A stretch of 64,000 bases of DNA. It comes from Cryptosporangium minutisporangium. GTDB lineage: Bacteria; Actinomycetota; Actinomycetes; Mycobacteriales; Cryptosporangiaceae. A program made the translations under genes and the position numbers. Location of the stretch: positions 1 to 64,000 of the forward strand of contig NZ_BAAAYN010000082.1 of NCBI RefSeq assembly GCF_039536245.1, in the 5' to 3' direction. The notes under the pieces are model-generated. The model did no database searches, was not told the DNA's origin, and saw only the letters and a program-made list of their open reading frames with translations. This document shows, piece after piece, positions 27,055 through 53,480 of the stretch (positions are counted from its first letter, which is position 1; each line of letters opens with the position of its first letter).

Positions 27055-29252
27055 CTGCGATCACCACACCTCCGACCCCACCGCCCCTCCCGCCGCCGTC
27101 CGTCGACGGTGAGGTGCTGGCCACCGCGTCGGCGAAACCGGCGAAACCGGCGGGGCGGCTCGGACGGTTCCTCCGAGGCCGGGACGAGGACCCCCGCTGG
27201 GTCCGGCCGGCCCTGCTCGGTCTGCTGCTCGGCACCGCCGTGCTCTACCTGTGGGATCTCGGCTCGTCCGGCTGGGCGAACAGCTTCTACTCGGCCGCCG
27301 TCCAAGCCGGCACCGAGAGCTGGAAGGCGTTCTTCTTCGGCTCGTCGGACGCGTCGAACTTCATCACGGTCGACAAGACGCCGGCGGCGCTCTGGGTCAT
27401 GGAGATCTCCGCGCGGATCTTCGGCGTCAACGCCTGGAGCATCCTGGTGCCGCAGGCGCTGGAGGGGGTCGCGTCCGTCGGGCTCCTCTACCTGGCGGTC
27501 CGGCGCTGGTCCGGCCCGGTCGCGGGCCTGATCGCCGGAGCGGTGCTCGCGCTGACGCCGGTCGCCACGCTGATGTTCCGATTCAACAATCCCGACGCGC
27601 TGCTCGTCCTGCTGCTGATCGGTGCGGTCTACGCGACGATGCGCGCGATCGAACGCGCCGCGGTGCGGGCCGGCACCCGGTGGCTGGCGCTGGCGGGTCT
27701 GCTGATCGGGTTCGGCTTCCTCACCAAGATGCTGCAGGCCTTCCTGATCGTGCCGGTGCTCGGCCTGGTGTACCTGGTCGTCGCCCCCACGTCGGTGCGC
27801 CGCCGGATCGCGCAGCTTCTGATCGCGCTGGCGGCGCTCGTGGTCGGTGCCGGCTGGTGGGTCGCGCTCGCGGAGCTGTGGCCGGCCGGCAGCCGTCCGT
27901 ACATCGGCGGCTCGCAGACCAACAGCGTGCTGGACCTGGTGTTCGGTTACAACGGCCTGGGCCGGCTCAACGGCGACGAGGCCGGTAGCGTCGTGCCCGG
28001 CGGCGGTGGCGCCGGTTCCTGGGGCGAGACCGGGCTTCTTCGCCTGTTCAACGCGGAGTTCGGGACGCAGGCCAGCTGGCTCCTCCCCGCCGCGCTGATC
28101 CTGCTGGTAGCGGTGCTCGGCTTCACCGCTCGCGCCGCGCGTACCGACCGGACCCGCGCCGCGATGCTGCTCTGGGGCGGCTGGCTGGTCGTCACCGGCC
28201 TGGTCTTCAGTTACATGCAGGGCATCATCCATCCGTACTACACGGTGGCGCTGGCGCCCGCGATCGGTGCGGTGGTCGGCATCGGTGCGGTCTCGGTCTG
28301 GCGGCTGCGCGGCGAGGACGCCGCCCGCGCGGTGCTGGCGGTCGCGATGGCGGCCACCGCGATCTGGGCTTTCGTCCTGGTCGGACGCGCGGACTGGCAG
28401 TCCTGGCTGCGGTGGATCGTCCTCGCCGGTGGGCTGGCCGTCGCGGTCGGGCTCGCGTTCACGCCGCGGCTGGCGCGGCGGCTCGCGGTCGGGCTCGCGG
28501 CGCTCGCGATCCTGCTCGGGATCGCGGCTCCCGCCGCGTACGCCGTCCAGACGGCGTCGGAGCCGCACTCGGGGGCGATCCCGAGCGCGGGGCCGTCCGG
28601 CGGGTTCGGCGGTGGTCCCGGTGGTTTGGGTGGACGCCAGGGCGGCGGCCGATTCGGCGCCCAGCAGGTGCCGGGTGGGCAGGTGCCGGGTGGGCAGGTG
28701 CCGGGTGGGCAGGTGCCGGGTGGGCAGGTGCCGGGTGGGCCGCAGGGCAGCGGGCAGTTGCCGTGGCAGCAGGGTCGGGGCAACGGCTCTTCGGGGTCAC
28801 CGGGCACGCAGGGGTCACCGTCACCGGGCCCGCAGGGCGGGTTCGCGATGGGCGGCAACCGGGGCGGTGGCAGCCTTCTCAACGGCAGCACCCCGAGCGC
28901 CGAGCTGACCGCGCTGCTCGCGAAGGACGCCGACCGGTACCGCTGGATCGCCGCGACGATCGGCTCCAACTCGGCGGCCGGCTACCAGCTGGCCACCGGT
29001 GACCCGGTGATGGCGATCGGCGGCTTCAACGGCACCGACCCGACGCCGACGTTGGCCGCCTTCCAGGCCTACGTCCGGGCCGGCGAGATCCACTACTTCA
29101 TCGCCGGCGGCACGGGTTTCGGGAGCTCCAGCAGCTCCGGAACGTCCGGGCAGATCACGCAGTGGGTCGAGGAGAACTTCACCGCGACCACCGTCGACGG
29201 AGTCACCGTCTACGACCTGACCCAGTCCGGCTCGGTCCCGACCGAGGAGTAA
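27051..29252 (+). CDS. GT39/ArnT-like polyprenyl-phosphate-sugar glycosyltransferase
   Basis: 733 residues. A Pro-rich cytoplasmic tail is followed by about 11-13 helices (residues 48-510). The first outer loop holds DKTPAALWVMEISARIFG, the catalytic-loop landmark of this C-type transferase family. A Gly/Gln/Pro linker (about 520-610) includes five perfect QVPGG repeats, and an outer C-terminal domain of about 120 residues follows. The family moves a sugar from a lipid carrier to a protein or glycan outside the membrane. Coupled by ATGA to the GT2-GtrA gene. Confidence 0.88.
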   Translation: MTAITTPPTPPPLPPPSVDGEVLATASAKPAKPAGRLGRFLRGRDEDPRWVRPALLGLLLGTAVLYLWDLGSSGWANSFYSAAVQAGTESWKAFFFGSSDASNFITVDKTPAALWVMEISARIFGVNAWSILVPQALEGVASVGLLYLAVRRWSGPVAGLIAGAVLALTPVATLMFRFNNPDALLVLLLIGAVYATMRAIERAAVRAGTRWLALAGLLIGFGFLTKMLQAFLIVPVLGLVYLVVAPTSVRRRIAQLLIALAALVVGAGWWVALAELWPAGSRPYIGGSQTNSVLDLVFGYNGLGRLNGDEAGSVVPGGGGAGSWGETGLLRLFNAEFGTQASWLLPAALILLVAVLGFTARAARTDRTRAAMLLWGGWLVVTGLVFSYMQGIIHPYYTVALAPAIGAVVGIGAVSVWRLRGEDAARAVLAVAMAATAIWAFVLVGRADWQSWLRWIVLAGGLAVAVGLAFTPRLARRLAVGLAALAILLGIAAPAAYAVQTASEPHSGAIPSAGPSGGFGGGPGGLGGRQGGGRFGAQQVPGGQVPGGQVPGGQVPGGQVPGGPQGSGQLPWQQGRGNGSSGSPGTQGSPSPGPQGGFAMGGNRGGGSLLNGSTPSAELTALLAKDADRYRWIAATIGSNSAAGYQLATGDPVMAIGGFNGTDPTPTLAAFQAYVRAGEIHYFIAGGTGFGSSSSSGTSGQITQWVEENFTATTVDGVTVYDLTQSGSVPTEE
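28665..28739 (+). repeat. 15-bp minisatellite, five perfect copies, in-frame
   Basis: Unit CAGGTGCCGGGTGGG repeated five times without mismatch inside the GT39 gene, encoding QVPGG five times in the linker before the outer domain. Being a multiple of 3, copy-number change would alter linker length without breaking the frame. Confidence 0.95.
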
Positions 29253-32949: not shown

Positions 32950-33531
32950 ATGGCCGCACCGGAGCAGTCCCCGGTTGGTCGCAGGTCGCGGCGGACGGTG
33001 TGGCTGGCCGTCGGAGCGGCGACCCTGGTCGTCGCCGCCGGGGTGGTGGTCGGGATCGTGACGAACCGTGATCCCTGGAGGCAGGGGCACCCGTGGGCGC
33101 GGGGGCACCCGTGCGCGGAGGCGGCGACCGGCGATGCACTTCCGTTCCGCGACCTGGAACATTCCGCCAACGGTGCGAACTGGGTGCGGCCCGAGCTCAC
33201 CGTGGCGCGCAGCCACACCGAGCTGACGACCTTGTGGACGCGGCTCCACGCGGGCCAGCAACCCGTACCGCCGCCGCCGTCGATCGCCTGGTCGCACGCG
33301 CTCGCGATCGGCGTCACGGTCGGCACCCGACCCACTGGCGGCTACCGCGTGGAGATCGAGCGGATCGTGCCGTCCGCGCGCGGCGTCGAGGTGTGCGTCG
33401 TGGAGTACACCCCCGCACGGGGCAGTGCGGTCTCACAGGCCCTGACCCTTCCGTACCAGCTGGTCGAGGCGCCCCGGTTCAACGGATCGGCGCACCTGTC
33501 GATCCGGAAAGAGGCGGGTACTCCCGACTAA
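32950..33531 (+). CDS. PrcB-like (protease complex subunit) membrane-anchored protein
   Basis: 193 residues. A signal anchor covers residues about 17-38. The outer part ends in a PrcB C-terminal domain (about 115-190): THWRL-like turns, then VEVCVVEYTPARGSAVSQALTLPYQLVEAP, typical of the domain named after the Treponema dentilisin complex. GGGAGG precedes the ATG. The stop overlaps that of the convergent trypsin-like protease gene, a suggestive though not conclusive neighbour. Confidence 0.7.
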   Translation: MAAPEQSPVGRRSRRTVWLAVGAATLVVAAGVVVGIVTNRDPWRQGHPWARGHPCAEAATGDALPFRDLEHSANGANWVRPELTVARSHTELTTLWTRLHAGQQPVPPPPSIAWSHALAIGVTVGTRPTGGYRVEIERIVPSARGVEVCVVEYTPARGSAVSQALTLPYQLVEAPRFNGSAHLSIRKEAGTPD

Positions 33532-34307
33532 CGGCCGCGGATCGTCGTCCGGATCCAGTCCGCGCTGACGTCCACCCGCGCGGTCGTCTCCTCGACGAAG
33601 TGCGGGCAGTCCGGCCCGGCGCTCTCGGTGGACACCACCTCGGGCCCGCGGCGGGTCTCCCGGAAGTACGGCGCGCCGGAGTCGTAGAGGCACGCGCTCG
33701 TGCTCGGCGACGGATCCTTCCCGACGACGCCGATCGTGGTCTCGGCGACGCTCTCCACCGTGACCAGACCGGTCTGCAGGTGCTCGGCGGGCTCGGTGGA
33801 GAGCCCGTCCAGCGCACCCCAGCCGGTCAGCCGCAGCACCTCGCCGGCTTTCGGCGCCGTGCGCGCGAGCCGGATGGGCTCGATGCCCTTCCCCGATCGG
33901 CCCACCACCGGCTTCGCCAGCCGCGCCAGCGCGATGTCGTTGACCGGCGACTGGGCCACCGCGACCACGGCAACGTCGACGCCGCCGGGTCCGGAGGCCT
34001 CGACCCGGCCGAGCGTCGCGGTGGTGGGGTACGGCACCCGACCACTCACCCGCTTGCCGTTGACGTCGCGGAAGCAGTGCCCGGCGGTGAGCACCCACTG
34101 CGCCGCGACGAGCGCACCCGAGCACGCGCTGTTCCGCGTGCTGCCGTCCGGGTTCGGGATGCCGGTCATCGTCAGCTTCGTCGAGAACCGGTACTTCCCC
34201 TCCTCGACCGGCACGCCGTTGGCGACCGCGCCGGCGGGAGACGCCGCTCCGATCAGGACGGCACCGACGGTGACGGCGGACAGAGCTAAGGCGGACAGCG
34301 AGCGCAT
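33528..34307 (-). CDS. Secreted trypsin-like serine protease (S1)
   Basis: 259 residues with a Sec signal peptide of 28 residues (cleavage near AGA-VA). The catalytic triad is complete: His77 in LTAGHC, Asp124 in NDIALARL and Ser210 in CLYDSGAPYF. The usual GDSGGP is changed to Y-D-S-G-A-P, which replaces the oxyanion-hole Gly193 by Tyr and Gly197 by Ala. Activity is plausible but may be altered. Two disulfides (Cys62-Cys78 and Cys206-Cys near 234) fit the fold. Confidence 0.88.
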   Translation of the reverse strand: MRSLSALALSAVTVGAVLIGAASPAGAVANGVPVEEGKYRFSTKLTMTGIPNPDGSTRNSACSGALVAAQWVLTAGHCFRDVNGKRVSGRVPYPTTATLGRVEASGPGGVDVAVVAVAQSPVNDIALARLAKPVVGRSGKGIEPIRLARTAPKAGEVLRLTGWGALDGLSTEPAEHLQTGLVTVESVAETTIGVVGKDPSPSTSACLYDSGAPYFRETRRGPEVVSTESAGPDCPHFVEETTARVDVSADWIRTTIRGR

Positions 34308-34401
34308 GCGGACCTTTCGTCGGATGACCGTGCTCCTTCCTACTCGGCCCGGTTCCGCTCCGCTCGCGAACAGACGGAATTCCGTCGATCTCCGGCGCCG
34401 C

Positions 34402-35175
34402 TCACGCCGTGGGGACCACCATCGGCGTGCCGGTGACCGGGTTGGGCATCACCAAGCTGGGCAACGCGAAGACGTCGTCCATCAGGGCGGCGTCCACGAT
34501 GTCGGCCGGCGGCCCCTGGGCGACGATCCGGCCGTCCTTCATCGCCACCAGGTGATCGGCGAAACGGCAGGCCTGGTTGATGTCGTGCAGCACCGCGACG
34601 ACGGTCCGGCCGGCGTCGCGGAGCCGCGCGAACAGCGCCAGCAGCTCGTACTGGTGGGTGATGTCCAGGAAGGTGGTCGGCTCGTCCAGCAGCAGGTACG
34701 GCGTCTGCTGGGCGAGCACCATCGCGACCCACACCCGCTGGCGCTGCCCGCCGGAGAGCTGGTCGACCGCGCGGTCGGCGAGCTCGGTCACACCCGCGTC
34801 GGCGAGTGCGGTGGCGACCGCGTCCGCGTCCGCCGCCGTCCAGCTGCCGAGCAGCGACTGGTGCGGGTACCGGCCGCGGGCGACCAGGCGGCGCACGGTG
34901 ATGCCTTCCGGCGCGACCAGCGTCTGTGGCAGGAACCCGATCTGCCGGGCGAACACCCGCGGCCGCAGCGACGTCACCGGCACATCGTCCAGCAGGACCT
35001 CGCCCGATGACGGCGCCAGCAGCCGCACCAGCGCCTTGAGCAGCGTCGACTTGCCGCAGGCGTTCGGACCGACGATCGCGGTGAACGCGCCGTCGGGTAC
35101 GGCCAACGTGATGTCCGGGGACACCACCCGCTCGCCGTAGGCGAGCGTGAGCCCTCGCGCGATCAATCGGCTCAT
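34402..35175 (-). CDS. Siderophore ABC transporter ATP-binding protein, system B
   Basis: 257 residues of the FepC/FecE type. Walker A is GPNACGKST at 36-44 (the usual third Gly is Ala), signature LSGGQRQR, Walker B LLLDEPTTFLD, H-loop VLHDINQ. It pairs functionally with the two permeases just upstream in the operon. Its ATG overlaps the stop of the last unit of a 19-copy minicistron array, whose sequence also provides its Shine-Dalgarno (GAGG, 7 nt upstream). Confidence 0.93.
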   Translation of the reverse strand: MSRLIARGLTLAYGERVVSPDITLAVPDGAFTAIVGPNACGKSTLLKALVRLLAPSSGEVLLDDVPVTSLRPRVFARQIGFLPQTLVAPEGITVRRLVARGRYPHQSLLGSWTAADADAVATALADAGVTELADRAVDQLSGGQRQRVWVAMVLAQQTPYLLLDEPTTFLDITHQYELLALFARLRDAGRTVVAVLHDINQACRFADHLVAMKDGRIVAQGPPADIVDAALMDDVFALPSLVMPNPVTGTPMVVPTA

Positions 35176-35207
35176 CCGGATACCTCGCTCTTCGCGCACG
35201 CGCTCAT
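35172..35207 (-). CDS. Last minicistron of the array (11 residues, variant)
   Basis: Encodes MSACAKSEVSG, differing from the other units only in the last two residues. Its TGA overlaps the ATG of the ATPase gene. The variant end is probably the original sequence in front of that gene, with the other copies derived by slippage or recombination. Confidence 0.4.
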   Translation of the reverse strand: MSACAKSEVSG

Positions 35208-35783
35208 CGGTGTACCTCGCTCTTCGCGCACGCGCTCATCGGTGTACCTCGCTCTTCGCGCACGCGCTCATCGGTGTACCTCGCTCTTCGCGCACGCGCT
35301 CATCGGTGTACCTCGCTCTTCGCGCACGCGCTCATCGGTGTACCTCGCTCTTCGCGCACGCGCTCATCGGTGTACCTCGCTCTTCGCGCACGCGCTCATC
35401 GGTGTACCTCGCTCTTCGCGCACGCGCTCATCGGTGTACCTCGCTCTTCGCGCACGCGCTCATCGGTGTACCTCGCTCTTCGCGCACGCGCTCATCGGTG
35501 TACCTCGCTCTTCGCGCACGCGCTCATCGGTGTACCTCGCTCTTCGCGCACGCGCTCATCGGTGTACCTCGCTCTTCGCGCACGCGCTCATCGGTGTACC
35601 TCGCTCTTCGCGCACGCGCTCATCGGTGTACCTCGCTCTTCGCGCACGCGCTCATCGGTGTACCTCGCTCTTCGCGCACGCGCTCATCGGTGTACCTCGC
35701 TCTTCGCGCACGCGCTCATCGGTGTACCTCGCTCTTCGCGCACGCGCTCATCGGTGTACCTCGCTCTTCGCGCAAGCGCTCAT
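35176..35783 (-). repeat. Array of 19 head-to-tail 32-bp minicistron repeats
   Basis: The ATG of the first unit (35783) and the ATG of the ATPase gene (35175) are 608 bp apart, exactly 19 x 32. Seventeen units are identical. The first differs by one silent base and the last by a few bases. On the minus strand every unit reads ATG, ten more codons, then TGA overlapping the next ATG. Each also carries a GAGG 7 nt before that ATG. There are no spacers, so this is not a CRISPR. The array fills the whole gap between the second permease and the ATPase. MIRU elements of mycobacteria also sit at such stop/start overlaps. Confidence 0.97.
35748..35783 (-). CDS. First minicistron of the array (11 residues)
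   Basis: Encodes MSACAKSEVHR. Its ATG overlaps the TGA of the FecCD permease (ATGA) and its own TGA overlaps the next unit's ATG. The same peptide is encoded by the first 18 units. Uses GCT for Ala3 where others use GCG. Translation is inferred from the coupling geometry and the Shine-Dalgarno; whether the peptide matters is unknown. Confidence 0.4.
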   Translation of the reverse strand: MSACAKSEVHR

Positions 35784-36745
35784 CGGCGGCGCACCTCCAC
35801 CATCAGCAACCAGATCAGATAGCACCCGCCCAACGCGGTCGTGACGACGCCCACCGGCAGCGCGGTCGGTGCCAGCAGCACCTGCGCGGTCAGGTCCGCC
35901 GCGAGCAGCAGCACCGCACCGGCGAGCGCCGCGGGCAGCAGCGGCACACCGGCTTCGCGGGCGAGCCGCCGCCCGATCTGCGGCGCGGCCAGCGCGATGA
36001 AGACGATCGGCCCGGCGACCGCGGTCACGGTCGCGGTGCAGCCGACCCCGGTCGCGACCAGAAGCAGCCGGAGCCGGTCCAGCCGGACGCCGGACGTCAC
36101 CGCGACGTCGTCGCCGAGCGCGGCCTGGTGCATGGTGTGCGCCAGGCCCGCGAGCACGATCGCCAGCGCGCCGAGGACGCTCAGCGGCACCACCAGCTCG
36201 TCCCAGTCGACGCCGTTGAGCGAACCGGCGCTCCACCCGGTCGCCGCGATCGCGACGTCCAGCTCGGCGCGGAGCACGATCCACGAGTTCACCGCCGTGA
36301 GGATCGCGTTGACCGCGATACCGACGACGATCAGCCGCAGGCCGGAGAGGCCCGAGCGTCCGGCCGAGAGCACGTAGACCGCCGCCGCTGCTGCCAGCCC
36401 GCCGAGTACCGAGCTGGCTTGGAGCATGCCCGCTCCCCCGCCGAGCAGCGTGATCGCGACCAGCGCCCCGGTGTAGGCGCCGGTGTCCAGCCCGATGACG
36501 TCCGGGCTGCCCAGCGCGTTGCGGGTCAGGTTCTGGAAGAGCGCACCGGCCAGGCCGAGCGCGGCGCCGAACGCGAGCGCCGCGGTCACCCGGGGCAGCC
36601 GCCAGTTCAGGATCACGAACGCCTCGTCGCCGCGCCCGACCAGGGCGGCGAGCACGTCGGACGAGGTCGACCAGGTGCTGCCGTAGTGCAGGGCGGCGAA
36701 CGCCAGCGTGAGCGCCACCCCGATCGCCGCGAACCGGAACCTCAC
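35780..36745 (-). CDS. FecCD-family siderophore ABC permease, system B, second subunit
   Basis: 321 residues, about nine membrane helices. GALFQNLTRNALGSPDVIG and GPIVFIALAAPQIGRRL are the family landmarks. The GTG start overlaps the stop of the first permease (GTGA) and the TGA stop overlaps the first minicistron ATG. It forms the channel with 36742-37737. Confidence 0.92.
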   Translation of the reverse strand: MRFRFAAIGVALTLAFAALHYGSTWSTSSDVLAALVGRGDEAFVILNWRLPRVTAALAFGAALGLAGALFQNLTRNALGSPDVIGLDTGAYTGALVAITLLGGGAGMLQASSVLGGLAAAAAVYVLSAGRSGLSGLRLIVVGIAVNAILTAVNSWIVLRAELDVAIAATGWSAGSLNGVDWDELVVPLSVLGALAIVLAGLAHTMHQAALGDDVAVTSGVRLDRLRLLLVATGVGCTATVTAVAGPIVFIALAAPQIGRRLAREAGVPLLPAALAGAVLLLAADLTAQVLLAPTALPVGVVTTALGGCYLIWLLMVEVRRR

Positions 36746-37737
36746 GACGCCGCCTCGAACGTCCGCACGGCCCAGATCAGCACCGGGCCGCCGAGGAACG
36801 CGGTCACCACCGCCACAGGCACCTCGCCGGTGGGCAGCAGCAGCCGGGCCCCGACGTCGGCCACCACCAGCAGCACCGCACCCACCACGAGCGAGTGGAC
36901 GAGCAGCCAGGGCACCGAGTCCGCGGCGATCCGGCGGGCCAGGTGCGGCACGATCAGCCCGACGAACGCCACCGGGCCCGCCACCGCGGTCGCCGTGCCG
37001 GCCAGCACCGTCACCAGCAGCAGTACCACCGCGCGGGTCCGGCCGACGTGCGCGCCGAGCCCGCGGGCGACGTCCTCGCCGAGGGCCAGCGTCGACAGCG
37101 GCCGGGACATCAGCAGCGCACCGGCGAGCGACAGCGCGACGACGACCACCGGAACGGTCAGCGGGATCCGCTCGCTGCCGGCCAGCGCGCCGACCGACCA
37201 GAACCGGTAGCGGTCGAAAACGTCCGGGAACGTCAGCCGCAGGCCCAGCGAGATGCCCATCAGCACCGCGGTCAGCGCCACCCCGGCCAGCAGCAGCCGC
37301 AGCGGCGAGGTCCGGCCGACCGCGTACACGATCACGGACGCGACCGCGCAGCCGACGACCGCGAGCCCCAGCTGCCCGAGCTGGGTGCCGGCCAGGCCCG
37401 CGAGCACCCCGACGTTGATCGCGAACCCGGCGCCCGCGGTCAGCCCGAGCAGCGCCGGCTCGGCGAGCGGGTTGCGGCTGACCGTCTGGATGAGCGCGCC
37501 GGACACCCCGAGCGCCGCACCGACGCACACGCCGAACACCGTCCGCGGCAGCCGGAGGTCCCGCACCACGACGTGGTCGTCGGTGCCGGCGTAGTCGAAC
37601 AGCGCCCGCCAGACCTCGGCGGGCGCGACCGACCGGGCGCCGACGGCGACGCCCGCCAGCAGCGCGCCGAGCAGCACCACGAGCGCGACGGTGAGGAAGA
37701 GCAGCTGGTCAGTCCTCGCTGTGCGCCGCAACGCCAC
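36742..37737 (-). CDS. FecCD-family siderophore ABC permease, system B, first subunit
   Basis: 331 residues. GALIQTVSRNPLAEPALLG and AFVGLIVPHLARRI identify a FecCD permease. The GTG start at 37737 lies 29 bp inside the upstream reductase gene; no better start is seen closer to the stop of that gene. Second permease of a heterodimer; substrate a ferric siderophore. Confidence 0.92.
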   Translation of the reverse strand: MALRRTARTDQLLFLTVALVVLLGALLAGVAVGARSVAPAEVWRALFDYAGTDDHVVVRDLRLPRTVFGVCVGAALGVSGALIQTVSRNPLAEPALLGLTAGAGFAINVGVLAGLAGTQLGQLGLAVVGCAVASVIVYAVGRTSPLRLLLAGVALTAVLMGISLGLRLTFPDVFDRYRFWSVGALAGSERIPLTVPVVVVALSLAGALLMSRPLSTLALGEDVARGLGAHVGRTRAVVLLLVTVLAGTATAVAGPVAFVGLIVPHLARRIAADSVPWLLVHSLVVGAVLLVVADVGARLLLPTGEVPVAVVTAFLGGPVLIWAVRTFEAAS

Positions 37738-38491
37738 GTTTCCAGTATCCGGTGACCAGGTGGTCGAGTCGCCCGCGGGCCCAGGTGCGCACCGGCTTGA
37801 GCGCGGTGGCCTCCCCGGCGGCGAACAGGAACGTTCCCTCCGGCAGCGGCAGGCCGCGGACGGCGTCCGGTTCGTCGTAGGTGACGGTCACCCGTTCGCG
37901 CGCCGCCAGCGGGTAGGCCCGTTCGTCGCCGGTGACGACGACGTGCGCGCTCACGTCCGGGGGTGACTCATCGAGCCAGCGGCCGAGGGCCGGGAGTGCG
38001 GTGGCATCGACGACGAACGCGTAGTGGCCGTACGTGTGGGGGAACGCTTCGGCACCGGGTGGCCCGGCGATCGTCACGTCCTCCCCGACGGCGGCGCCGC
38101 GCACCCAGGTCGAGGCGAGCCCGCCCTCGTGCAGCACGAAGTCCAGGTCGAGCTCGAGCGCGACCGGGTCGTACCGGCGGATCGTGTACTTGCGGGTCGG
38201 CGGGAACGGGTGCGGCCAGTCGAGCATGTCGTGAGCGTTGGGCACCGGATCGCGCTGGGTGCCGTCCGGGTCCGGGAACACGATTCGCACGTGGTCGTCG
38301 GCCTGGTAGGTGTGCAGGCCCTGGAGGCCGTCACCGCCGAACGTCAGCCGGGTCATGGCTGGGGTGACCGACGTGATCCGGGTGATCGACGCCCTCCGGA
38401 CGCCGATCGGGTACGGGACGCGGGTCAGGCCGCTGCCCGCCCGGTGGTGGGCAGCGACCTTCGGACCGGGATCCGTCCTCGACTGCTTCAC
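37709..38491 (-). CDS. Siderophore-interacting protein (ferric-siderophore reductase), system B
   Basis: 260 residues, same family as 5986-6834 but clearly diverged. The FAD motif is KYTIRRYDP, followed by LDFVLHEGGLASTW and the C-terminal FLFAAGEATALKPVR. The GTG start overlaps the binding-protein stop (GTGA) and the 3' end overlaps the permease gene by 29 bp. Expected role: NAD(P)H-dependent release of iron from the imported siderophore. Confidence 0.9.
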   Translation of the reverse strand: MKQSRTDPGPKVAAHHRAGSGLTRVPYPIGVRRASITRITSVTPAMTRLTFGGDGLQGLHTYQADDHVRIVFPDPDGTQRDPVPNAHDMLDWPHPFPPTRKYTIRRYDPVALELDLDFVLHEGGLASTWVRGAAVGEDVTIAGPPGAEAFPHTYGHYAFVVDATALPALGRWLDESPPDVSAHVVVTGDERAYPLAARERVTVTYDEPDAVRGLPLPEGTFLFAAGEATALKPVRTWARGRLDHLVTGYWKRGVAAHSED

Positions 38492-39474
38492 TTGGCCAGC
38501 AGCGGCGCGAAGGCCGTGTCGATCGCGTCGAGCGTCTTCGTCGCCGCGGGGTACGTCGCCGCCTCGGTGTAGCGGATCGCGAACACCTTGCCCGCCTTCA
38601 CCGCCTTGAGGTTCTTCCAGAGCGGCGAGTCCAGCACGGCCTGCACGGAGTCGGACGGCGTGCCGTCCGGCTGCACGGTGTAGGTGATCGCATCGGCCTC
38701 GCCCAGGCTCGCGGAGAGCTCCTCCAGCGACGGGTACTCGGAGACCGCCTTGCTGCCCTCGCCCGGCTCCTTGACCTGGCCGTAGTAGGTGACGCCGATG
38801 TCTCCGGCGACGTTCGTGCCCCAGGACTTGGCGAACTCGCGGTGGAACTGGCCCTTGGAGATGTCGCCGTAGCCGCCCACGTGGCCGAACTTCAGGCTGT
38901 CGAGGGCGGACGCGTATTTGGTCTTCAGCTCGGCGGCCTTGGCCTCGTAGGCCTGCTTGCCTTTCTCGAACTGCTCGGTGGCGCCGGCGGCGTCCGCCTG
39001 CTTCTGCGACAGCGTCCGCCAGGCGTCGGGGATCGTGGGGCCGATCGCGACGACCGGCGCGATCCCCTTCAACCGGTCCAGGTCGATGTCGGCGAGCACC
39101 GGCTTCGGAACACCGATGACGATGAGGTCGGGCTTGGCGGCCGCGATCGCCTCGTAGTTCGTCTCGGCGGCGGTCTCACCGGCCACCTTCGTCAGTTCGT
39201 TGTAGGTGGCGAGGTCCTCGGGCGTCATCAGCGGGATGCCGCGCTTCCAGGACGAGATGCCGACCAGCTTGGCGTCGGCCTCGATCAGGGCGGGAACCGC
39301 GTAGCCGGTCGCGACGACCCGCTGGGGGTTCACCGGGATCTCCACGGTGCCGTTGTCGGCGCTGAAGCTACGCGTGGCGGCCTCGTCGGACGCGGAGGTG
39401 GAGTCGTCGCTGCTGCCGCAGCCGGCCAGGAGAGCGAGGGCGAGAACGGCCGCGCTGAGATGTCTGAAACGCAT
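38488..39474 (-). CDS. Iron-siderophore ABC transporter substrate-binding lipoprotein, system B
   Basis: 328 residues. Lipobox L-A-G-C with Cys19. The mature part has the FhuD-like fold: VEIPVNPQRVVATGYAVPALIE near the start and KPDLIVIGVPKPV in the first lobe. First gene of the minus-strand operon of system B. Charged helices around residues 160-190 (EKGKQAYEAKAAELKTKY) form the connecting backbone helix. Confidence 0.92.
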   Translation of the reverse strand: MRFRHLSAAVLALALLAGCGSSDDSTSASDEAATRSFSADNGTVEIPVNPQRVVATGYAVPALIEADAKLVGISSWKRGIPLMTPEDLATYNELTKVAGETAAETNYEAIAAAKPDLIVIGVPKPVLADIDLDRLKGIAPVVAIGPTIPDAWRTLSQKQADAAGATEQFEKGKQAYEAKAAELKTKYASALDSLKFGHVGGYGDISKGQFHREFAKSWGTNVAGDIGVTYYGQVKEPGEGSKAVSEYPSLEELSASLGEADAITYTVQPDGTPSDSVQAVLDSPLWKNLKAVKAGKVFAIRYTEAATYPAATKTLDAIDTAFAPLLAK

Positions 39475-39517
39475 ATGAGCTGGTCCTTGGACGTGCTGAT
39501 GAGGGCTATCGGAGAGG

Positions 39518-39536
39518 TGAGGTTACCCTTACCTAA
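39518..39536. promoter_or_regulatory. IdeR/DtxR-type iron box B
   Basis: Matches TTAGGTTAGSCTAACCTAA at 16 of 19 positions. It lies between the divergent binding-lipoprotein gene (39474) and AraC gene (39568), so iron-loaded repressor could control the whole of system B and its regulator. Confidence 0.82.
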
Positions 39537-39567
39537 ACCGTCGTTCGTGTCGCTGAGAGGTCATCCC

Positions 39568-40365
39568 GTGTCGCGCACAGGACAGTCGTTCCTCGTCGGG
39601 TCCGACCCGGTTGTCTGCGACGAGTACGGCTACGGGCTCGGCCGACCGAACGGGATCCTCGTCCTGCGGTACCGCTCCTCGTCCGTACTCGGTTTCGGCG
39701 AGGGGCGGGAGGACCTGCTGCACCAGTTTTACTGGTCACCCTCCGGAATGCTGGCGGCACGCCACGGCACGACGCCGCTGTTCGTCGGGCCCGACGAGGC
39801 GTTCTGGGTGCGCCGCGCGATCACCCACGAGGTCCGCGCCGGGGCCGATCAGAGCGTCTACCGCGTGTGCTTGCGGGAGATCCCACCCGGCCTGCTGGGG
39901 TTCCGGGTCGGCATCGCCGCGTTCGCGCCCCACGCGGCCGCGCTGCTGGAGAACATCGCCCGGCCTGGCTACCCGGAGCCGGAGGCGCTCGCGGCCCGCG
40001 CGGAGATCATGGCCGGGCTGACCCCGGTCTCGGCCGACGTCGAGGGCGGCCCCGAGGGGCGGTACGCCCTCGCGGTGGCGCGGGCGCTGACCCGCGACCC
40101 CGCCGACCCCACCACCCTCGCCGAGTGGGCCGGGCGCTTACACATCAGCCCGAAGACGCTGCAGCGCGACTTCCAGCGGGAGTACGGCACGTCCTACTCG
40201 CAGTGGCGGACGGACCTGCGGCTCCGAGCGTCCACCGTGCTGCTGAGGACACACCCGGTGGCGGAGGTGGCGCGGCGGGTCGGGTACGCGAGCACGTCGG
40301 CGTTCGTGGCGGCGTTCGGCCGCGCGTACGGCCACACCCCGGGCCGGCACACCGAGCACGTCTGA
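39568..40365 (+). CDS. AraC-family transcriptional regulator
   Basis: 265 residues. An N-terminal cupin-like sensing domain (about 1-150) precedes two helix-turn-helix motifs (about 165-262): LHISPKTLQRDFQREYG and VAEVARRVGYASTSAFVAAFGRAYGHTPGR. The GTG at 39568 was chosen because GAGAGG lies 7 nt upstream. Divergent from the siderophore operon and sharing an iron box, it resembles in context AraC regulators that activate uptake when their own siderophore is present. Confidence 0.9.
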   Translation: MSRTGQSFLVGSDPVVCDEYGYGLGRPNGILVLRYRSSSVLGFGEGREDLLHQFYWSPSGMLAARHGTTPLFVGPDEAFWVRRAITHEVRAGADQSVYRVCLREIPPGLLGFRVGIAAFAPHAAALLENIARPGYPEPEALAARAEIMAGLTPVSADVEGGPEGRYALAVARALTRDPADPTTLAEWAGRLHISPKTLQRDFQREYGTSYSQWRTDLRLRASTVLLRTHPVAEVARRVGYASTSAFVAAFGRAYGHTPGRHTEHV

Positions 40366-40499
40366 CGACCGCTCGTCGGACGGGACAGCCGGGTCGCCGA
40401 TTCCCGTTTGGATTCCGCTACGCCGGGGATTCCCCTGCCCCCGACAATGGGGTTGCATCCGACATTCGGGATGTATGTATCCGACGATTGGAGTGTGCC

Positions 40500-40964
40500 A
40501 TGGCGAGTACCTCCGACTCCGCCCGTGGGCGCCTCACCGCTGGGCGGACGCCGGTACAGCTGGCCGCGCTCGGCTCCGGCGCGCTGTTCGTGTTGGTCGG
40601 CTTGCTCGGGTTCATTCCCGGGCTGACGACGAACTACGACGACCTGGGCGTGGCTGGGCACGAGTCCGAAGCCCTGCTGCTCGGCGTGTTCCAGGTATCG
40701 ATCCTGCACAACGTCGTACACCTGCTGTTCGGCGTCGCGGGCCTGCTGATGGCGCGCACCGCACGCACGGCGACGCTGTTCCTGGTGGGCGGCGGTGCGA
40801 TCTACTTCCTGCTGTTCCTCTACGGCCTGGTCATCGACCACGAGAGCGGGGCGAACTTCGTCCCGGTGAACACGGCCGACAACTGGCTGCACCTGCTGCT
40901 CGCGGCCGGGATGATCGGAGCCGGCCTGCTCCTCGGCCGTCGCACGGCCGCGAACGTCCGCTGA
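40500..40964 (+). CDS. DUF4383 membrane protein
   Basis: 154 residues with four membrane helices. The family pattern is clear: RTPVQLAALGSGALFVLVGLLGFIPG, HNVVHLLFGVAGLLMAR and DNWLHLLLAAGMIGAGLLLG. Family function unknown. GGAG lies 8 nt before the ATG. Followed by a strong terminator. Confidence 0.92.
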   Translation: MASTSDSARGRLTAGRTPVQLAALGSGALFVLVGLLGFIPGLTTNYDDLGVAGHESEALLLGVFQVSILHNVVHLLFGVAGLLMARTARTATLFLVGGGAIYFLLFLYGLVIDHESGANFVPVNTADNWLHLLLAAGMIGAGLLLGRRTAANVR

Positions 40965-51873: not shown

Positions 51874-52050
51874 GCCTGCGCCACCCGGGAAGGGCGCCAT
51901 CCACCGCCCACTCCGCCCGGAAAGGACGACAACCACCCGACGGGCCACCCGGGGAACGTGCCAACCATCGGCGGGCTACCCGGAAAGCGCGCCAACCACC
52001 CGGCGGGCTACCCGGAAAGCGCGCCAACCATCGGCGGCGCCAGCCAACCA
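51864..52050. repeat. Degenerate 31-34-bp tandem repeat
   Basis: About six imperfect units, each starting near CCAACCA and ending near CCCGGAAAGCGC; the fourth and fifth are almost identical. The first unit begins in the right arm of the 50-bp palindrome. No convincing gene lies in 51656-52136 otherwise. Confidence 0.8.
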
Positions 52051-53160: not shown

Positions 53161-53168
53161 GCACGCGC

Positions 53169-53480
53169 TCAGGAGGACCCCGCCACCGGCGCCCCGCGCC
53201 CACACAACCGGGATCCTCCGCGCGTACACGTGCTCAGGAGGACCCCGCCACCGGCGCCCCGCGCCCACACAACCGGGATCCTCCGCGCGTACACGTGCTC
53301 AGGAGGACCCCGCCACCGGCGCCCCGCGCCCACACAACCGGGATCCTCCGCGCGTACACGTGCTCAGGAGGACCCCGCCACCGGCGCCCCGCGCCCACAC
53401 AACCGGGATCCTCCGCGCGTACACGTGCTCGGGAGGACCCCGCCGCCGGCGCCCCGTGGCGGCGGGATCCTCCCGTTTCG
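53169..53480. repeat. 65-bp tandem array, four exact copies plus a partial
   Basis: Units begin at 53169, 53234, 53299 and 53364, and a diverged partial unit at 53429. Each unit holds an inverted repeat (GGAGGACCCCG and CGGGATCCTCC, one mismatch), so the array can form a row of hairpins. 65 is not a multiple of 3 and the frames are not protein-like. The rest of 53481-53693 is the leader of the OmpA-like gene. Confidence 0.92.

Follow-up and report, generated by a model that had tools for sequence, protein, structure and literature searches.

Why should nineteen tiny open reading frames lie end to end between two genes of a siderophore-uptake operon? The operon occupies the minus strand of the window, that is, the whole 64,000-nucleotide stretch of Cryptosporangium minutisporangium DNA that was analysed, and Pfam gives its order as binding protein, SIP, FecCD, FecCD, ATPase: an iron-siderophore binding protein (PF01497, 38488-39474), a siderophore-interacting FAD protein with a GTGA overlap (PF08021/PF04954, 37709-38491), a first FecCD permease (36742-37737), a second (FecCD-2; PF01032, 35780-36745) whose GTG start overlaps the stop of the first, and an ABC transporter ATPase (PF00005, 34402-35175). 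The two other junctions of this fec operon that were checked are GTGA overlaps. From the stop of FecCD-2 to the ATPase start, positions 35783-35172 on the minus strand hold 19 head-to-tail 32-bp units followed by ATGA. We consider it probable that this array arose where it stands, by tandem amplification of a single copy of a dispersed element of about 32 bp, found across the Mycobacteriales and working like a miniature MIRU.

Each unit consists of an ATG, ten further codons and a TGA that overlaps the next ATG (ATGA), and GAGG stands 7 nt 5' of every ATG in the array. The first ATG (35783) overlaps the FecCD-2 stop (TGA, 35782-35780), and the ATPase ATG at 35175 overlaps the TGA of the last mini-ORF. 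Unit 1 (35752-35783, ATGAGCGCTTGCGCGAAGAGCGAGGTACACCG) reads GCTTGCG where the other units read GCGTGCG, and contains the core GAGCGCTTGCG as it occurs in dispersed copies; units 2-18 (35208-35751) are identical; and unit 19 (35176-35207) ends in a tail, GTATCCGG, unlike that of any other unit. Eighteen units encode MSACAKSEVHR and the last encodes MSACAKSEVSG. Tandem Repeats Finder reports a period of 32, 19.3 copies, 99% matches and a score of 1206. The array of ATGA-overlapped minicistrons, with its GAGG spacing and peptides, is just as originally described from the sequence. A profile search of the window recovered all 19 units at E values from 5e-12 (unit 1) to 1.2e-6, with 8e-8 for each of units 2-18, and nothing else below 0.4. 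The count of exactly 19 comes from one assembly of 152 contigs, and 17 identical 32-bp units within 608 bp of such a draft are the kind of array that is often mis-sized. Units 1 and 19, however, are distinguishable from the interior units and connect to unique flanking sequence, and arrays of 27, 7, 5, 4 and 3 units exist independently in other genomes, so we regard an assembly artefact or a wrong copy number as extremely unlikely.

The array unit belongs to a dispersed family with the core CGATGAGCGCTTGCGCGAAGAGC, in which the unit is about 32 bp and the conserved core about 23 bp. An exact 30-mer of the fec array had no match in GTDB, the interior unit being peculiar to this genome; a search relaxed to the core revealed the family. 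The search of this and related genomes with the 32-mer, which had been proposed as a check, likewise found related units in both once relaxed to the core. With a 45-copy profile, copies besides the 19 units of the window (C82) were detected in the C. minutisporangium genome at C2, C61 and C24, as a 3-unit 32-bp array at C25 and as a decayed copy at C8, all at operon junctions, and three congeners have one to three family loci each. Of the 399 genomes searched in the order, 52, mostly Mycobacterium-like, have the 20-bp core with at most one mismatch; the reversed-pattern control gave none. The richest genomes, with 53-61 units each (61 being the maximum per genome), belong to a genus (g9) that is in all likelihood Mycobacterium, since most of the loci with names in that scan of GTDB come from Mycobacterium and Mycolicibacterium. 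The GTDB scan returned 40 loci, nearly all in Actinomycetes and about two-thirds in these two genera. Outside the mycobacteria, the element occurs in the family of C. minutisporangium (f1), in three further families of the order (f2, f4 and f6), and in records from Pseudonocardiales, Sporichthyaceae and Jatrophihabitans. Altogether 111 distinct loci comprise 247 units, in arrays of 1 to 27, with a repeat period of 32 or 33 bp and rarely of 30, 31, 35 or 43 bp; core positions 1-20 were part of the search pattern, and their constancy is thus partly imposed.

Matches of the GTDB scan in Planctomycetia and Flavobacteriales were attributed to chance, and the 4-unit array of a Melainabacteria bin was judged probable contamination. 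No match to the element was found in phages, and among plasmids there was only a diverged copy, on pMYCCH.01 of Mycolicibacterium chubuense NBB4 (L358, 1190-1260), at the junction of two Mce family genes. Neither a mobilising enzyme nor movement of the element was seen. No curated Rfam model matches positions 33000-40500 of the window at E <= 1, and open-licence papers searched for this sequence, its peptide and repeats at junctions yielded nothing beyond MIRUs; apparently, this family of tiny junction repeats in mycobacteria and their relatives is undescribed so far. In Pseudonocardiales bins (L127, L136, L152 and L161) a second short motif, ATGAGTGAGCATCGCAGCGAGCG, follows the element, often in pairs some 80-90 bp apart, and is possibly a second family of junction minicistrons.

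Placement of the copies is strongly patterned. With the reading frames of flanking genes assigned by a codon-position GC test, an overlap of 4 or 1 nt between the upstream stop and the element's ATG was seen at 59 of the 86 loci that could be scored. On the downstream side, 56 of 90 scored loci have the next start at -4 or -1 relative to the stop of the final mini-ORF, and at 77 of 106 both flanks are read in the direction of the element. Of the 111 loci, 89 have CG directly before the ATGA, compared with 31% of the other ATGA in this DNA; these two bases lay outside the search pattern. Some copies, such as that between atpD and atpC, lie at the upstream stop only, with the next start farther off; bridging of two genes is common, not universal. 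An unbroken-chain test (46/47, hardly above 33-40/47 in its control) is not used here as evidence because the control was also mostly unbroken. Given this range of sites, the siderophore setting is no specialty of the element, as had been supposed: the same unit stands at dozens of unrelated junctions.

Five occupied junctions have orthologous empty ones within the genus, and the gains, at stop/start overlaps of the CG|ATGA type, are exact multiples of 32 bp (32, 96 and 608). A glutamate permease junction reads CGTCCG|ATGA when empty in two species and has an additional 32 bp in two others; a glycosyltransferase junction likewise reads GGCCG|ATGA or has 32 bp more; and junctions at a sulfite-oxidase-like gene and at pafC are each 96 bp longer than their empty orthologues. 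At the fec junction of a congener (G002), nothing separates FecCD from the ATPase, the two meeting in a GTGA overlap, and the array amounts to a gain of 608 bp relative to it. The bases before the last unit's closing start tend to agree with those of the empty junction, as at C25 (GCGCAG) and at fec (CCGG, resembling GCCGGTGA of G002), so insertion seems to keep the native pre-start bases on its 3' side. In Mycobacterium, a FabG-NMO junction has 0, 1, 2 or 3 units depending on the species, and the atpD-atpC junction 0, 1, 4 or 27. The largest of these arrays, 27 units of 33 bp in the ATP synthase operon (L256, 1600-2600, minus strand; contig C86 of genome G171), forms a single continuous ORF of 307 codons made of fused MSACAKNGLAP repeats. 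The expectation that the fec array is of a copy-number-variable type is thus upheld by other arrays of its family, which range from 0 to 27 units, this being variation between species with one genome per species compared.

What persists among copies is length and overlap. Two pairs of orthologous occupied sites show 6 and 9 base differences in 36 and 4 and 6 residue differences in 11, with no indel and with the stop/start overlap unchanged in both. By period, 34 arrays fall at 2 mod 3, which creates the overlap, 17 at 0 mod 3, which is in frame, and 2 at 1 mod 3, a distribution that fits translational continuity but equally simple descent. Because orthologous copies alter sequence and peptide but not length, and because some arrays have an in-frame 33-bp period, it is unlikely that the peptide is the conserved feature or the function. 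It had been suggested that the array supplies a pool of short Cys-containing peptides, and a Cys within a near-constant peptide does recur in all 19 fec units. These units, however, simply repeat the same DNA; elsewhere in the family codon 4 varies among Cys, Arg, Gly and Ser, up to six of 11 residues have changed between orthologues, some 33- or 30-bp arrays read as a single fused ORF, and constant third codon positions point to copying at the DNA level. A peptide-producing device is therefore barely credible, and the suggested pool is not supported, since neither the Cys nor the peptide is conserved among orthologous copies.

For the amplified junction element that we favor, most likely a MIRU-like element pared down nearly to its essentials, the following course may be proposed. 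A copy would land where a stop and a start meet as CG|ATGA, or at a TGA, and there it would supply an opening ATGA, a short ORF, a purine-rich ribosome site and a closing ATGA; the upstream gene would still stop, and the downstream gene would still be reached by re-initiation. Because the element brings its own start, ORF, ribosome site and ATGA end, both insertion and tandem duplication should be largely transparent to translation. Copy number would then drift through slippage, which self-pairing of the core GCGCGTGCGC may help, or through unequal recombination. We infer that ribosomes do re-initiate within the array, that the array is nearly neutral and that slippage occurs. Translational coupling through the array, as first envisaged, is the natural reading, since every stop overlaps the next start and coupling was found experimentally in 13 of 14 tested gene pairs with stop/start overlaps (Huber et al. 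2019, PMC6728339). The fec array shares overlap geometry and presumed mechanism with such ordinary ATGA overlaps, which join two real genes, whereas in the present case a chain of as many as 19 near-identical cistrons of 11 codons lies between the genes.

Might the ladder of overlaps have been selected to tune the operon, with ribosomes lost at each re-initiation so that unit number sets the amount of ATPase per permease? At each unit, ribosomes would have to terminate and re-initiate; in experiments, coupling at ATGA overlaps is strong, though its efficiency varies (PMC6728339); and arrays do differ in copy number. Unit number may possibly tune the ATPase. Yet the element mostly occurs as 1-5 units at many unrelated junctions, some without downstream coupling, and there is no sign of a preference of large arrays for any gene class; we think a selected tuning ladder unlikely. 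Nineteen successive hand-overs may or may not lower ATPase output, and fresh initiation may top up ribosomes along the array, because every unit has a GAGG. It is very unlikely that the array acts instead as a nucleic-acid structure, in which the GCGCNNGCGC core would pair between units into a long rod that shields the mRNA or blocks translation when ribosomes are scarce. The array RNA folds far better than its shuffles (z -10) and the variant GCGCGTGCGC self-pairs over 10 bp, which would account for strong folding of the array RNA if it is untranslated, but any tandem array with a self-complementary motif behaves likewise, the center of the consensus is mismatched, and in the 27-unit array the core still follows the consensus. 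For single units, folding is no better than in shuffles, and a conserved hairpin within one unit is not supported. A bolder form of the preferred reading, which we offer as a tentative and on balance doubtful proposal, is that a putative, hitherto undescribed actinobacterial family of ultra-short (~32 bp) mobile elements, each with a complete minicistron, targets stop/start overlaps, where its insertion and amplification would be invisible to translation, and that the largest arrays (19 units in the siderophore operon, 27 at atpD-atpC) would in addition be evolvable stoichiometry dials.

Of known repeats, those of REP/BOX/RUP type are short, dispersed, non-autonomous and patchy between species, as is the 32-bp element, but as a rule those are palindromes and are not organized around a stop/start overlap that includes their own ORF. 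Closer in design are the mycobacterial interspersed repetitive units, or MIRUs, which reportedly go back to Supply and colleagues in 1997 and for which we know of no transposase. MIRUs are apparently mobile repeats that insert at start codons with an ORF coupled at -4 nt (PMC12548453). The 32-bp element is similarly both dispersed and tandem (arrays of 2-27; up to 61 units per genome), stands at operon junctions with a small ORF overlapping the flanking genes by 4 nt, and varies in copy number, in its case as seen between species. It is shorter, 30-35 bp and mostly 32 or 33 against 40-100 bp for MIRUs (PMC2734929), has a core that appears distinct, and extends beyond Mycobacterium. The sequence comparison covered three MIRU-like senX3-regX3 junctions, and the core is absent from all three. 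One MIRU-like senX3-regX3 unit has weak 3' similarity to the element (GAAGAG..GGGC..CGATGA; shuffle fraction 0.002) and another is not similar (0.21); the resemblance may reflect convergence toward a ribosome site together with CGATGA. The original prediction had set MIRUs aside as longer and unrelated, which holds for the length and, as far as the senX3-regX3 comparison shows, largely for the sequence; architecture and insertion site, on the other hand, match those of MIRUs closely.

Few dispersed elements that contain a start, a stop and a ribosome site of their own would be smaller than this one, which is present in dozens of operons, including those for ATP synthase, siderophore uptake, pafBC and the type IV pilus. 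Its distribution suggests that, in actinobacteria, junction elements of the MIRU type extend well beyond the typing loci of M. tuberculosis. How far ribosomes can pass from stop to start is a long-standing question, and the natural series of 0, 1, 3, 19 and 27 chained units makes the reach of this hand-over directly testable.

Three further repeats were observed in the window. A 65-bp direct repeat at 53162-53456 (4.5 copies, 98% identical) and an imperfect 32-bp tandem repeat at 51916-52037 (about 4 copies, 79%) are both unrelated to the minicistron unit, the latter in sequence. Five exact 15-bp repeats at 28664-28740 encode QVPGG inside a 974-codon ORF that resembles a membrane glycosyltransferase.
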